DNA of 64,000 bases from Brochothrix thermosphacta DSM 20171 = FSL F6-1036. Lineage in GTDB: Bacteria; Bacillota; Bacilli; Lactobacillales; Listeriaceae. Of the stretch, positions 7,960 to 37,678 are shown in pieces. Made by a program: the position numbers and the translations under genes. The DNA is taken from NCBI RefSeq assembly GCF_036884295.1, contig NZ_CP145608.1:1116001-1180000 (forward strand). The letters run 5' to 3'. Numbering within the stretch: position 1 is the first letter of the stretch; every line of letters begins with the position of its first letter. The notes below the pieces were generated by a model. It saw nothing but the letters and a program-made list of their open reading frames with translations. It was not told the DNA's origin and searched no databases.

Positions 7960-7989
7960 CAAAATATATCATGATGAAACAATTATGAA

Positions 7990-8165
7990 TCTTATCAAGA
8001 GTGGTTGAGGGACTGGCCCTATGAAACCCAGCAGCCTACACTAAGGTGTAAGGTGCTAACCTGTGGCAAGATACAAAGGTATCTTGAGCGATAAGAGAAA
8101 AAAGGTATAGCTATAAGTATGCTATTAGGACCTTTTCTCTTTTTAGTGAGAAAAGGTTTTTTAAT
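7990..8165 (+). ncRNA. SAM-I (S-box) riboswitch with terminator, controlling metK
   Basis: The aptamer runs from CTTATCAAGAGTGG to GCGATAAGAG and contains the conserved GAGGGA, GAAACCC, AGCAGCC and GGTGCTAA elements. The P1 strands pair. Downstream, ACCTTTTCTC and GAGAAAAGG form a terminator ending in six T (8131-8162); the segment AGAGAAAAAAGGT just after P1 can pair with its left arm as an antiterminator. High S-adenosylmethionine should therefore switch metK off. Confidence 0.96.
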
Positions 8166-19960: not shown

Positions 19961-19974
19961 AAGGAGTATAGAAT

Positions 19975-20226
19975 AAAAACGATGATAGGAACTAGTAGCA
20001 AGGCTGTGTTGTTGAGAGAGTTAGCGGGTGGTGCGAGCTAATCAACACGAATTGTGAACTCATCCTTAAGTGCTCCAGTGAAAAGAGTAGTTGGAGACGT
20101 GCATTTCGCGTTAAGAAATTGAAGTGGATACACTATATTTTGGTGTGTTAATGCCGGGTGGTACCGCGGGAAGCAAATTCTCGTCCCGAAAAGTCGATTG
20201 ATGGCTTTTTGGGGCGTTTTTTTATG
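19975..20226 (+). ncRNA. T-box leader controlling leuS
   Basis: Contains the hallmark GGGTGGTACCGCGGG (20156-20170) that pairs with the uncharged tRNA acceptor end. A specifier region follows with CTC, a leucine codon, in GAACTCATCC, and the terminator CGTCCCGAAAAG/CTTTTTGGGGCG ends in seven T (20181-20223). Uncharged leucine tRNA should favour the antiterminator and raise leuS expression. Confidence 0.95.
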
Positions 20227-20277: not shown

Positions 20278-22695
20278 ATGACATTTAATCATCGTTTGAT
20301 TGAACCAAAATGGCAATCATACTGGAAAGAACAAAGTACCTTTAAAACTGAAAAAGGCGGAACAGCAGGTAATTTTTACGCATTAGATATGTTCCCTTAT
20401 CCCTCAGGCGTTGGTTTGCATGTTGGACACCCTGAAGGTTATACAGCAACTGATATTTTAGCGCGAATGAAACGTGCACAAGGTTTTAAAGTGCTTCATC
20501 CAATGGGCTGGGATGCTTTTGGATTACCAGCTGAGCAATACGCAATCGACACAGGAAATGATGTCAAGGAATTTACAGCTGAAAATATTGAAACATTTCG
20601 TCGTCAAATTAACTCATTAGGTTTTTCTTATGATTGGGACCGTGAAGTTAATACGACAGATCCAGATTACTATAAATGGACACAATGGATTTTTATCCAA
20701 CTTTATAATAAAGGTTTGGCATACGTTGATGAGGTCGCAGTCAACTGGTGCCCAGAATTACGTGCTGTATTGGCGAATGAAGAAGTCATCAATGGCTTGA
20801 GTGAACGAGGTGGACATCCGGTTGTAAGACGCCCTATGCGCCAATGGATGCTTAAAATCACAGCTTATGCGGATCGTTTAGTGGATGATTTGGACTTGGT
20901 TGATTGGCCGGAAAGCATTAAAGAAATGCAACGTCATTGGATTGGTCGTTCTTATGGAGCAGAAGTTAATTTTGCCGTTAAAGACCATGATGCTTCGTTT
21001 GCTGTATTTACAACGCGTCCAGATACATTATTTGGCGCAACATATTGTGTGCTTTCACCAGAACATGCGTTGGTAGAAAAAATTACAACAGCTGAGAATA
21101 AATCGGCCGTGGAAGCTTATCAAAAAGAAGTAGCATTGAAGAGTGACCTTGAGCGTACTGACTTAGCAAAAGAAAAAACAGGTGCTTTTACAGGTGCTTA
21201 TGCAATTAACCCAGTTAATGGTAAAGCAGTACCGATTTGGATTGCGGATTATGTATTATCAACATATGGTACAGGCGCTATTATGGCTGTTCCTGCACAC
21301 GATGAACGTGATTATGAGTTTGCACAAACGTTTGATCTGCCAATTATTCCAGTGCTTGAAGGTGGCGATGTTGCAACTGAAGCTTTTACAGGCGAAGGGA
21401 CACACATCAACTCTGAATTTTTAGATGGTTTGAACAAGGCAGATGCGATTGAAAAAGCAATTCAATGGTTAGAAGAAAATAAACACGGAGAAACAAAAGT
21501 TTCTTATCGCCTTCGTGATTGGGTATTCTCTCGTCAACGTTATTGGGGCGAGCCAATTCCAATTATTAACTGGGAAGATGGTACAATGACAACTGTTCCA
21601 GAAGAAGAATTACCAGTTAACTTGCCATACATGGAACATATAAAACCATCAGGTACAGGAGAATCACCATTGGCAAATGCCACAGAATGGTTGAATGTTG
21701 TTGACCCTGAAACAGGTTTGAAAGGACGTCGCGAAACAAATACAATGCCACAGTGGGCAGGATCAAGCTGGTACTTCTTACGTTATATTGATCCAGATAA
21801 CAAAGAGATGTTAGCTGACCCTGAAAAACTGAAAGAATGGTTGCCAGTAGATATGTACTTAGGCGGGGCAGAACATGCGGTATTACACTTGCTTTATGCA
21901 CGTTTCTGGCATAAATTCCTTTATGATATCGGAGTTGTACCCACACCAGAACCTTTCCAAAAATTGTATAATCAAGGTATGATTTTAGGGGAAAACAATG
22001 AAAAAATGAGTAAATCTCGTGGAAACGTTGTTAATCCTGATGATGTAGTTGAGCAATATGGTGCAGATGCATTGCGTGTTTACGAAATGTTCATGGGGCC
22101 ATTAGATGCAAGTATTGCATGGAGTGTCAATGGACTTGATGGGGCACGTAAGTTCTTAGACCGCGTTTGGCGTTTGTTAATTGACGAACGTGCTGAAAAA
22201 GTACAAGATAAAATCGTAGCAACGAATGACGGCAGTCTTGACCGCGTTTATCATCAAACAGTGAAGAAAGTAACAGCTGATTATGAAGTGTTGCATTTCA
22301 ATACAGCAATTTCACAATTGATGGTATTCATTAATGAAGCATATAAAGCAGATACAGTATATAAAGGTCACATTGAAGGCTTCTTACAATTGTTAGCGCC
22401 AATCGCTCCGCATATGAGTGAAGAACTATGGCAAAAACTAGGACATGAAGAAGACATTAGTTATGTAGCTTGGCCAGTACATGATGAAGCGATGTTGCAC
22501 GAAGATATAGTTGAAGTTATTTTCCAAGTCAACGGAAAAGTGAAAAGCCGCGTTGAAATAAAAAATGGCTTAGCGAAAGATGAACTTGAAGCAATGGCGA
22601 TGGCAGATGAAGCTATCCAAGAAAACATCGCTGGTAAAACAATCCGTAAAGTAATTGTTGTACCAAATAAATTAGTTAACATTGTAGCAAACTAA
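20278..22695 (+). CDS. leuS: Leucyl-tRNA synthetase LeuS
   Basis: Charges tRNA-Leu with leucine. The 805-residue class I synthetase has HIGH-type HVGHPEGY at residue 48, the KMSKS loop near residue 577, and the editing domain with TTRPDT in between. Length is normal. ATG 20278 follows AAAAGGGGA. Expression is governed by the T-box leader. The toxin array occupies the space upstream, between mnmM and this gene. Confidence 0.98.
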
Positions 22696-22740: not shown

Positions 22741-22751
22741 AGAACAAGTAG

Positions 22752-22784
22752 CACTCTGACAACATTGTCAGGGTGTTTTTTTTG
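22752..22784 (+). terminator. Terminator after leuS
   Basis: CACTCTGACAA/TTGTCAGGGTG stem with one G-T pair and a two-base loop, followed by eight T. Confidence 0.85.
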
Positions 22785-22871: not shown

Positions 22872-22997
22872 ACTCAGAAAAATAGAGAACGCGTATTACA
22901 ACTGTTGAAAAAATTGAACCAAACAGGTTGTACCGTCATTATTGTGACGCACGATGCAGAAGTAGAAGCGGTTTGTGGAAGAATAATAAAGATATAA
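22872..22997 (+). pseudogene. C-terminal fragment of a bacteriocin-type ABC ATPase
   Basis: One frame reads TQKNRERVLQLLKKLNQTG, then CTVIIVTHDAEVEAVCGRIIKI and a stop. This is the H-loop region (VTHD) and end of an ABC ATPase of the type beside lactococcin 972 bacteriocins (compare NRELVFKLLKDLHTKG and IVLVTHD at 6117-6734). Everything upstream of the D-loop is lost, so it is a relic of a third such locus. Confidence 0.8.
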
Positions 22998-23112
22998 AAA
23001 AGAGCAACACCTATTGGGGAAGGTGTTGCTCTTTTATTATTCAATATTCCTATTGGGGGAGGAATAAATGAAAAAAATGAAGTGTATATAAGTTATGTGG
23101 TAGATAACCTAT
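22997..23112 (-). ncRNA. Predicted LhrC-like small RNA, copy 1
   Basis: Read on the minus strand: -35 TTGTTT, 16-bp spacer, -10 TATACT (23119-23124), start near 23112. The transcript includes a hairpin ATTCCT/AGGAAT displaying the loop CCCCCAAT (23046-23065). It ends in the strong terminator GAGCAACACCT/AGGTGTTGCTC with six T and a second C-rich loop (TCCCC). No open reading frame of note. First of three tandem copies. Confidence 0.6.
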
Positions 23113-23242
23113 AAATATAGTATAGTCTGTAGATTTTGCGAAACAATTGCCAAATTATTAACAAATTGTGAATAATAGTTAAGCAAGTCTAACTGCCTTT
23201 TTTCTACGGATAAACTATTAAAAAGTGTAGGCTGTTTTTATC

Positions 23243-23344
23243 AATAAGAAACCCACCATCAAAATTGACGGTGGGTTTAATCTACTATTCCTATTGGGGG
23301 AGGAATTAGAGAAAAATGAAAAAGTTAAGTGGTAGTTAACTTAT
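23243..23344 (-). ncRNA. Predicted LhrC-like small RNA, copy 2
   Basis: Same plan as copy 1. The -10 TATACT is at 23351-23356 with conserved upstream bases (CTGTTT, 16-bp spacer). The loop hairpin ATTCCT-CCCCCAAT-AGGAAT is at 23287-23306, and the terminator AAACCCACC/GGTGGGTTT at 23249-23278. Terminator sequence differs completely from copy 1 while the loop and promoter are conserved. Confidence 0.6.
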
Positions 23345-23418
23345 AAATTAAGTATAGTCTCTGGAATTTACAAAACAGTTACTAAATTATTAACAAACTG
23401 TTAAAGTATTATCGTATA

Positions 23419-23533
23419 TAAAATAAAACTCCTCAATCATTAGAATTGAGGAGTAAATTTCATATTTTATTCCTATTTGGGGGAGGAATATTTTTAAATG
23501 AAAAGTATATAAGTTAGTGTGTTATGAACTTAT
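23419..23533 (-). ncRNA. Predicted LhrC-like small RNA, copy 3
   Basis: -10 TATAAT (23540-23545) with -35 TTACGA 17 bp away. The loop hairpin ATTCCT-CCCCCAAAT-AGGAAT is at 23469-23489, and the terminator ACTCCTCAAT/ATTGAGGAGT at 23428-23453 is followed by TTTTATTTTA on the minus strand. Best promoter of the three. Confidence 0.6.
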
Positions 23534-23615
23534 ACATTTATTATAGTACATCCACATTGCATTCGTAAGGCAATGATGTTAAGAGTGTGTAAAGGATTGT
23601 TACAGTTGGATTAAG

Positions 23616-24287
23616 TTAAACGGTTTGGATGAAACAACTTCTTGTAATTGCTGGTACTTCTTCATTAAATTCTTCCAATAAACTTTGAGAAACAACAGAA
23701 TCAACAACACAGATAGAAATGGCTTTTCCGCCTTTATTCCATCTTTCATTGGCAAAACGCGCAATGTTATACCCACGTTTTGTTAACGCTAATGTTATAT
23801 CAGCAATGAAACCAATTGAGTCATCATGATAGAAGACCAATGTAGGTTGTTCACCAGTGAATTTTAAAGGTAATTTTTCAATTTCTTGTACTTCAGCTTT
23901 ACCGCCACCAAGAGAACTAGCAACGAGTGTGAGTTCTTTATTATCTTCGGAAATTAGAATAACGCGCACGCTGTTTGGGTGGAAATTACCCACAGGTACA
24001 GTATCGAAACTATAGCGGAGTTGGCGTTCTTCAGCAATTTTTTTAGCATCAGCAACTTCATCACTAAAAGTAGTGTAACCCATAACGCCAGCTAACAAAG
24101 CTAAATCCGTCCCATGTCCTAGATAGGTTTCAGCAAATGATCCCATCAATTCAAAGCGAACAACAGCAGGCTCAAATTCAGATAGTTGTCGTGCAATATT
24201 ACCAATTCGTACCGCCCCAGCAGTATGAGAGCTGGAAGGCCCAACCATCACAGGGCCGATTATTTCAAAAGCACTTTCGTATTTCAT
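23616..24287 (-). CDS. sdaAB: L-serine dehydratase, iron-sulfur-dependent, beta subunit
   Basis: Beta chain of the 4Fe-4S L-serine dehydratase that deaminates serine to pyruvate and ammonia. The 223-residue protein has the N-terminal domain with GPVMVGPSSSHTAGAVRIG and a C-terminal ACT-like domain (VFYHDDSIGFIADITLALTKRGYNIA). Its start overlaps the stop of the alpha gene by 4 bp (ATGA), so the subunits are coupled. Confidence 0.93.
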   Translation of the reverse strand: MKYESAFEIIGPVMVGPSSSHTAGAVRIGNIARQLSEFEPAVVRFELMGSFAETYLGHGTDLALLAGVMGYTTFSDEVADAKKIAEERQLRYSFDTVPVGNFHPNSVRVILISEDNKELTLVASSLGGGKAEVQEIEKLPLKFTGEQPTLVFYHDDSIGFIADITLALTKRGYNIARFANERWNKGGKAISICVVDSVVSQSLLEEFNEEVPAITRSCFIQTV

Positions 24288-36835: not shown

Positions 36836-36861
36836 ATAAATAACTTAAATAACCTTTAAAT

Positions 36862-37563
<702 letters not shown>

Positions 37564-37574
37564 CAACTCTTTTA

Positions 37575-37678
37575 AATTAGTCCAGAGAGGCTGATAAGGA
37601 GTTCCCAATAGTGATGGCGCTTTTGTGCCGTCTGCTATGCCGAACTCTTATGACCTCTCATAAGAGTTATTTTTTTGC
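37575..37678 (+). ncRNA. PyrR-dependent attenuator 2 (pyrR-pyrP)
   Basis: A second AGTCCAGAGAGGCT loop (37579-37592) and terminator AACTCTTATG/CATAAGAGTT with seven T (37643-37677). Only 14 bp separate pyrP from pyrB, so the third attenuator known from Bacillus is absent. Confidence 0.95.

Follow-up and report, generated by a model that had tools for sequence, protein, structure and literature searches.

The window, a stretch of 64,000 nucleotides from the genome of Brochothrix thermosphacta DSM 20171 = FSL F6-1036 (NZ_CP145608.1, positions 1,116,001 to 1,180,000 of the forward strand), includes the genes leuS (20278-22695, plus strand) and sdaAB (23616-24287, minus strand), and the gap that these two genes flank holds three units on the minus strand. 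In the order of their predicted transcripts these are A (23545 to 23428), B (23356 to 23249) and C (23124 to 22998). The initial annotation had read a minus-strand -10 box (TATACT or TATAAT), a hairpin and a terminator three times over between 22997 and 23545; all of these are present in the sequence, and the units, each with a 5' hairpin in addition to what had been listed, have a common layout of -10 box, 5' hairpin, U-rich linker, loop hairpin with CCCCCAA(A)U and intrinsic terminator. The features are as follows, the covariance-model scores being those of copies included in the model.

23428..23545, minus strand, putative sRNA unit A (sequence, fold z -5.8, terminator scan, covariance model 87.9 bits)
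23545-23540, minus strand, -10 box of unit A, TATAAT
23535-23505, minus strand, 5' hairpin of unit A, followed by a linker that contains UUUUCAU
23489-23469, minus strand, C-rich loop hairpin of unit A, ATTCCTCCCCCAAATAGGAAT
23454-23428, minus strand, terminator of unit A, 11-pair stem
23382..23405, minus strand, upstream element of unit B, TTTAACAGTTTGTTAATAATTTAG, candidate activator site
23249..23356, minus strand, putative sRNA unit B (sequence, fold z -5.5, terminator scan, covariance model 97.3 bits)
23356-23351, minus strand, -10 box of unit B, TATACT
23344-23322, minus strand, 5' hairpin of unit B, AUAAGUUAACUACCACUUAACUU, followed by a linker that contains UUUUUCAU
23306-23287, minus strand, C-rich loop hairpin of unit B, ATTCCTCCCCCAATAGGAAT
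23278-23249, minus strand, terminator of unit B, 13-pair stem
23150..23172, minus strand, upstream element of unit C, TTCACAATTTGTTAATAATTTGG, candidate activator site
22998..23124, minus strand, putative sRNA unit C (sequence, fold z -9.2, terminator scan, covariance model 115.1 bits)
23124-23119, minus strand, -10 box of unit C, TATACT
23112-23088, minus strand, 5' hairpin of unit C, followed by a linker that contains UUUUUUUCAU
23065-23046, minus strand, C-rich loop hairpin of unit C, ATTCCTCCCCCAATAGGAAT
23035-22998, minus strand, terminator of unit C, 15-pair stem

The terminator stems have no sequence in common yet are paired throughout, in agreement with the initial annotation, and the terminator loop of unit C forms a second C-rich site, CCUUCCCCAAU. 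An exposed loop conserved among the units had also been claimed, and it is found in all three in the general form AUUCCUCCCCCAA(A)UAGGAAU; it is not identical, as unit A carries one extra A and exposes CCCCCAAAU, compared with CCCCCAAU in B and C. Repeat analysis returned two families with three copies each, 52 and 47 nt long, together with a pair of 83 nt, 82% identical, that takes in the promoters of B and C. The terminator of unit C is abutted by a remnant on the plus strand (22885-22996) that resembles the C-terminal end of an ABC-transporter ATPase, ERVLQLLKKLNQTGCTVIIVTHDAEVEAVCGRIIKI, followed by a stop codon; a search against Pfam gave only a sub-threshold AAA match for it, and its presence suggests that the gap consists in part of gene debris. 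Elsewhere in the window a SAM riboswitch (7989-8097), a T-box leader upstream of leuS (19973-20191) and two PyrR-binding leaders (36849-36977 and 37565-37676), all on the plus strand, score above their Rfam gathering scores.

Folding recovers the 5' hairpin, the loop hairpin and the terminator in each unit, and none of 200 shuffled sequences was as stable as the native one. Five terminator-like sites were found in the gap where 0.4 are expected, and the exact loop hairpin has three occurrences in the 2.56-Mb genome, all of them here. A generic scan of both strands of 464 kb, for a -10 box, a hairpin with a stem of 6 bp or more and CCCCC in its loop, and a terminator, in that order, returned A, B, C, a fourth copy described below and two further places, one at the 3' end of a gene and one antisense to an ordinary ribosome-binding site, both of which look like chance; no cluster comparable to A-C was present elsewhere in these 464 kb. 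An exact-loop scan of the contig collection gave a single match, in a metagenome-assembled genome (MAG) of the Eubacteriales, which was set aside.

The promoters of the units combine good -10 boxes with poor -35 hexamers, as a result of which the promoter scan made no call on A, B or C, and which may mean that they are activator-dependent or weak. The upstream element of unit B starts 61 nt ahead of the ATAAG in the 5' hairpin and recurs, at the same distance, in unit C and in the copy of the sister species; in all three it resembles TTTAACA-N3-TGTTAATA and lies 40-60 nt upstream. A good -10 box without a -35 hexamer, together with a conserved upstream element, suggests an activator, perhaps a response regulator. 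Induction of LhrC, the multicopy sRNA of Listeria, by cell-envelope stress runs through the two-component system LisRK, and when scored at a fixed offset with a matrix of lhrC promoters the upstream elements rank among the best 0.3-2% of positions in the genome. This comparison is suggestive, but both base composition and a ~5-nt displacement with respect to the -10 box confound it. The lisR gene was sought by synteny beside gnd and was not found there.

The genome of the sister species, most likely B. campestris as judged from its relatives, carries a single copy between its own leuS and sdaAB genes, UUAUAGGUUAACUACCACUUAGCUUAUAGACAACUUUUUUCAUUUAAAAAUUCCUCCCCCAAUAGGAA, which keeps the 5' hairpin, UUUUUUCAU and the C-rich loop and then continues into a different but well-paired terminator. 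The gap of the sister species also holds a gene for a DUF805 membrane protein (L020:6900-7325, minus strand) that is missing from the window. A covariance model of the four copies (A, B, C and sister), in which the covariation signal is weak with four sequences, finds those same four among 36 genomes, and across 148 genomes of the order it has matches in its own genome only; a 35-bit match in a Listeria-type genome (G010) has no C-rich loop and was discarded. The search of related genomes with covariance models that had been proposed at the outset thus has a same-gap ortholog from the sister species to show but no convincing match beyond the genus, and by this measure the family is genus-restricted.

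Searching for the complement of the loop located the fourth, diverged copy, AUAUAGUUAUUGAAUAACUAUACUUUCAUAUAUCUCUCCCCCUAUUGAGAUAAUGAAUACCCCUACUCUUGGCGACUUUUAAAAAGUCGUCUUUUUUU, on the plus strand (L052:1475-1572) near 1,688,330 of the chromosome, 549 kb away. It matches the sister species (L106) at 84% over 139 nt, includes a conserved CCCCUACUCUUGG stretch ahead of the terminator, and has UUCAU inside a stem, like Listeria LhrC. A match of this copy to MicF lies far below the gathering score and is attributed to chance. In BLAST searches of Listeria-type genomes with the gap as query, the matches proved to be start regions of genes, including those of a MIKKSK... membrane protein (secDF-like by eye) and of a binding protein, and were rejected as sRNAs; being start regions, they indicate that a segment of the RNA mimics the antisense of such regions.

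In 6/6 copies (the three units, their counterpart in the sister species and both species' versions of the fourth copy) (U)UUCAU lies upstream of CUCCCCC, and the two together are the reverse complement of GGGGGAG...AUGAA(A), that is, of a Shine-Dalgarno (SD) sequence, a start codon and a Lys codon. Because this complementarity recurs in every copy, translational repression by base-pairing is likely. Shuffling puts the probability that a given linker contains UUCAU by chance at 0.02-0.2; as the copies are related, multiplying these values does not give a probability. Duplexes with the linker and C-rich hairpin were computed, using energies that ignore mRNA folding, over a sample of 464 kb (~18% of the genome, 404 crudely called genes) in which some stretches had been chosen for holding candidates. 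Genes of secreted type pair better than cytosolic ones (p 2e-4 with the sample-seeding genes removed), and the two classes are not separated by the 16S rRNA tail (p 0.11); some degree of SD pairing is shown by any C-rich RNA. The best pairing among the ~400 sampled start regions is with mRNAs of OppA-type peptide-binding lipoproteins: one of the six SBP_bac_5 (OppA-type) genes outranks all 404 sampled genes, three more are within the best 5%, and averaged over the six the rank fraction is 0.17, where shuffled RNAs give 0.44 +/- 0.07 (0/60 as good). In the top-ranking gene (G000:C1:2,150,906-2,152,063, minus strand) the predicted duplex covers both SD and AUG, and its site, TTTTAGGGGAGGAATTTGTTTATGAAGAA, is identical in both species over 29 nt next to a diverged upstream flank. 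Further candidates are the neighbouring paralog of this gene, near 2,154,600, and a gene starting at 1,075,700 with AGGGGGAGAAATAAAATGAAAAAA. In the draft assembly of the sister species, a gene for a peptide-binding lipoprotein (L021:1985-2065, minus strand) is apparently out of frame near the signal peptide, where there is a homopolymer, TTTTTTTT; this may reflect either an error or a real change.

The same complementarity places a perfect SD and ATG AAA on the plus strand of every unit, where GGGGGAGGAAU...AUGAAA might be the ribosome-binding site of tiny peptides. The frames would be of only 7, 7 and 4 codons (MKKMKCI, MKKLSGS, MKSI), neither the sister copy nor the fourth one keeps the peptides, no promoter is conserved on that strand, the SD would be locked inside a hairpin, and the order of promoter and terminator suits the minus strand, all of which makes a functional plus strand extremely improbable. 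A gap between the convergent genes leuS and sdaAB is also a place where terminators are expected, as would be the case if the units were mere terminators, or remnants of cis-acting leaders or attenuators, rather than sRNA genes. However, leuS has its own terminator at 22750-22777, no minus-strand gene lies downstream of the units for regulation in cis, and each unit is equipped with its own -10 box, 5' hairpin and conserved upstream element; this explanation, which would also leave the three copies and the complementarity to SD and start codon unaccounted for, we regard as very unlikely.

A, B and C are probably paralogous, separately transcribed genes for trans-acting antisense sRNAs, belonging to a Brochothrix-specific multicopy family that represses translation. 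The claim of three tandem sRNA genes in the initial annotation is backed by structure, by clustering, by the syntenic ortholog in the sister species and by a fourth copy kept in both species. From the units, folds, conservation and complementarity, which were computed, we infer transcription, the order of pairing, repression, targets and a regulator. Each RNA would be ~100-115 nt long, with a 5' hairpin, then a U-rich linker containing UUUCAU, then a second hairpin whose loop presents CUCCCCCAA, and finally a terminator. First contact would be made between the C-rich loop and the G-rich Shine-Dalgarno sequence, after which the hairpin would open and UUUCAU would pair with AUGAAA, covering both SD and start codon and thereby blocking the initiation of translation. 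This order of events, from loop contact through stem opening to start-codon pairing, is borrowed from the interaction of LhrC4 with lapB (PMC4132741). The targets are most likely mRNAs of exported proteins that start with Met-Lys-Lys, above all the OppA-type peptide-binding lipoproteins.

Multicopy C-rich sRNAs are a recurrent means in low-GC Gram-positive bacteria of lowering envelope and transport proteins. The sister genus of Listeria appears to have a version of its own, present in four copies and with a predicted target site that is conserved, in a food (meat)-spoilage organism. A literature search by title and abstract returned no paper on small RNAs in Brochothrix, which is not proof of absence. 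By the sequence comparisons made here the units belong to a family of known kind that has no name and is confined to the genus, predicted to work like LhrC and the csRNAs of streptococci, and the Brochothrix units can seed a family absent from Rfam.

The csRNAs are multicopy RNAs of ~100 nt that combine anti-SD and CAU sequences and belong to a two-component (CiaRH) regulon (PMC3091779). The Brochothrix units resemble them in having several similar copies, an anti-SD with a CAU anti-start, a 5' stem-loop and a terminator (PMC3091779), and might on these grounds be csRNA-type RNAs under a CiaR-like regulator. In csRNAs, however, two stem-loops are separated by an unpaired stretch that holds both anti-SD and CAU, whereas in every Brochothrix copy the anti-SD sits in a hairpin loop; the CAU is unpaired in the linkers of B and C and paired in the minimum-energy fold of unit A. 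The csRNAs moreover differ in order and lineage. The CiaR motif is a TTTAAG-type direct repeat, and none was seen by eye in the promoters of the units. There is also no Rfam csRNA match, and membership in this class is highly improbable. Other sRNAs of low-GC Gram-positives with a UCCC motif that binds SD regions, namely RsaE, SprD, RNAIII and FsrA (PMC4132741), have the C-rich UCCC-type motif in common with the units but are not tandem families of such layout, and the gap has no Rfam match to their families. Permissive Rfam matches to Plastid-psbA-3, Ref84 (30.5 bits) and SQ1002 are far below the gathering scores and are ascribed to chance.

The closest parallels are with LhrC. In Listeria monocytogenes the LhrC siblings (LhrC1-5, Rli22 and Rli33-1) are ~105-121 nt long (PMC4132741, PMC8079631), and both oppA and lapB are repressed by LhrC through masking of the SD (PMC5880928, PMC8079631, PMC4132741), much as is predicted for the Brochothrix units and exported proteins including OppA. 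Both sets are multicopy and partly tandem (in B. thermosphacta three tandem copies and one distant), and both have intrinsic terminators and C-rich hairpin loops, the UCCC motif in the loop of stem-loop A of LhrC having its counterpart in UCCUCCCCC within the loop hairpin of all units. The bipartite layout, with anti-start beside anti-SD, is likewise common to them, as the Listeria LhrC sequence (ATTTTCATTCTTTCCCC... / AUAAGCUAACAACAAGCAAAACAUUUUCAUUCUUUCCCCUUUUUAGAAUGAAAAUCCCAAACUCCC...) consists of an anti-AUGAAAA adjoining an anti-SD C-rich loop. The Brochothrix units differ in an extra strong 5' hairpin, in their locus, in having UUUCAU in the linker rather than in a stem (the fourth copy, like LhrC, having it in a stem), and in one UCCC-type site in A and B compared with two or three in LhrC. 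A second conserved UCCC motif stands in the single-stranded stretch before the terminator in all seven LhrC siblings (PMC8079631); it is absent from that stretch in A, B and C, unit C having UUCCCC in its terminator loop and the fourth copy ACCCCUAC.

The units have no significant match to LhrC in sequence or structure model. Where the gathering score is 110 bits, Rfam LhrC (RF00616) gives at best 17.8 bits, for unit B, with the fourth copy at 16.9, and the best match anywhere in the genome (E 0.82) is at another place. Each of the 14 Listeria-type genomes searched has several strong LhrC matches, above the cut-off in 9/14, and neither Brochothrix genome has one. In a second Listeria-type genus (L058, L062 and others) there are 8-17 LhrC matches per genome, many below the Rfam cut-off, a number exceeding the seven siblings described for L. 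monocytogenes. The description of the units as LhrC-like therefore stands for the design and for the probable, oppA-type target class, and fails for membership in the Rfam LhrC family (17.8 vs 110 bits).

Whether the units are true LhrC homologs, so strongly diverged that design, targets and LisR control were kept and recognisable sequence was lost, is a separate question, and we consider such descent possible, if rather doubtful. It is favoured by the common bacterial family (Listeriaceae), the identical order of the bipartite anti-start/anti-SD, the resemblance between the 5' starts of unit B and LhrC (AUAAGYUAAC), and the ranking of the upstream elements with the lhrC promoter matrix. With an LhrC model built from Listeria copies, unit B is the top match in the 64-kb window and the fourth copy, with its UUCAU in a stem, ranks third in 78 kb; but these scores are all near chance (18.1 bits, E 0.25, for unit B, with a chance hit next at 17.7 bits). 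Also against it are the distance from the Rfam cut-off, the different locus, the lack of a second UCCC in the single-stranded stretch and the promoter distances, which are off by ~5 nt. Multicopy RNAs might act throughout the Listeriaceae as a post-transcriptional switch on peptide-transporter and other exported lipoproteins, with bipartite design and targets persisting, a tentative proposal that we would not expect to hold. It would entail, equally speculatively, a complete turnover of sequence, locus and terminators between Listeria (LhrC) and Brochothrix. The Brochothrix units are in this respect a testable case, either of deep homology hidden by sequence turnover or of convergence on the same design and targets.
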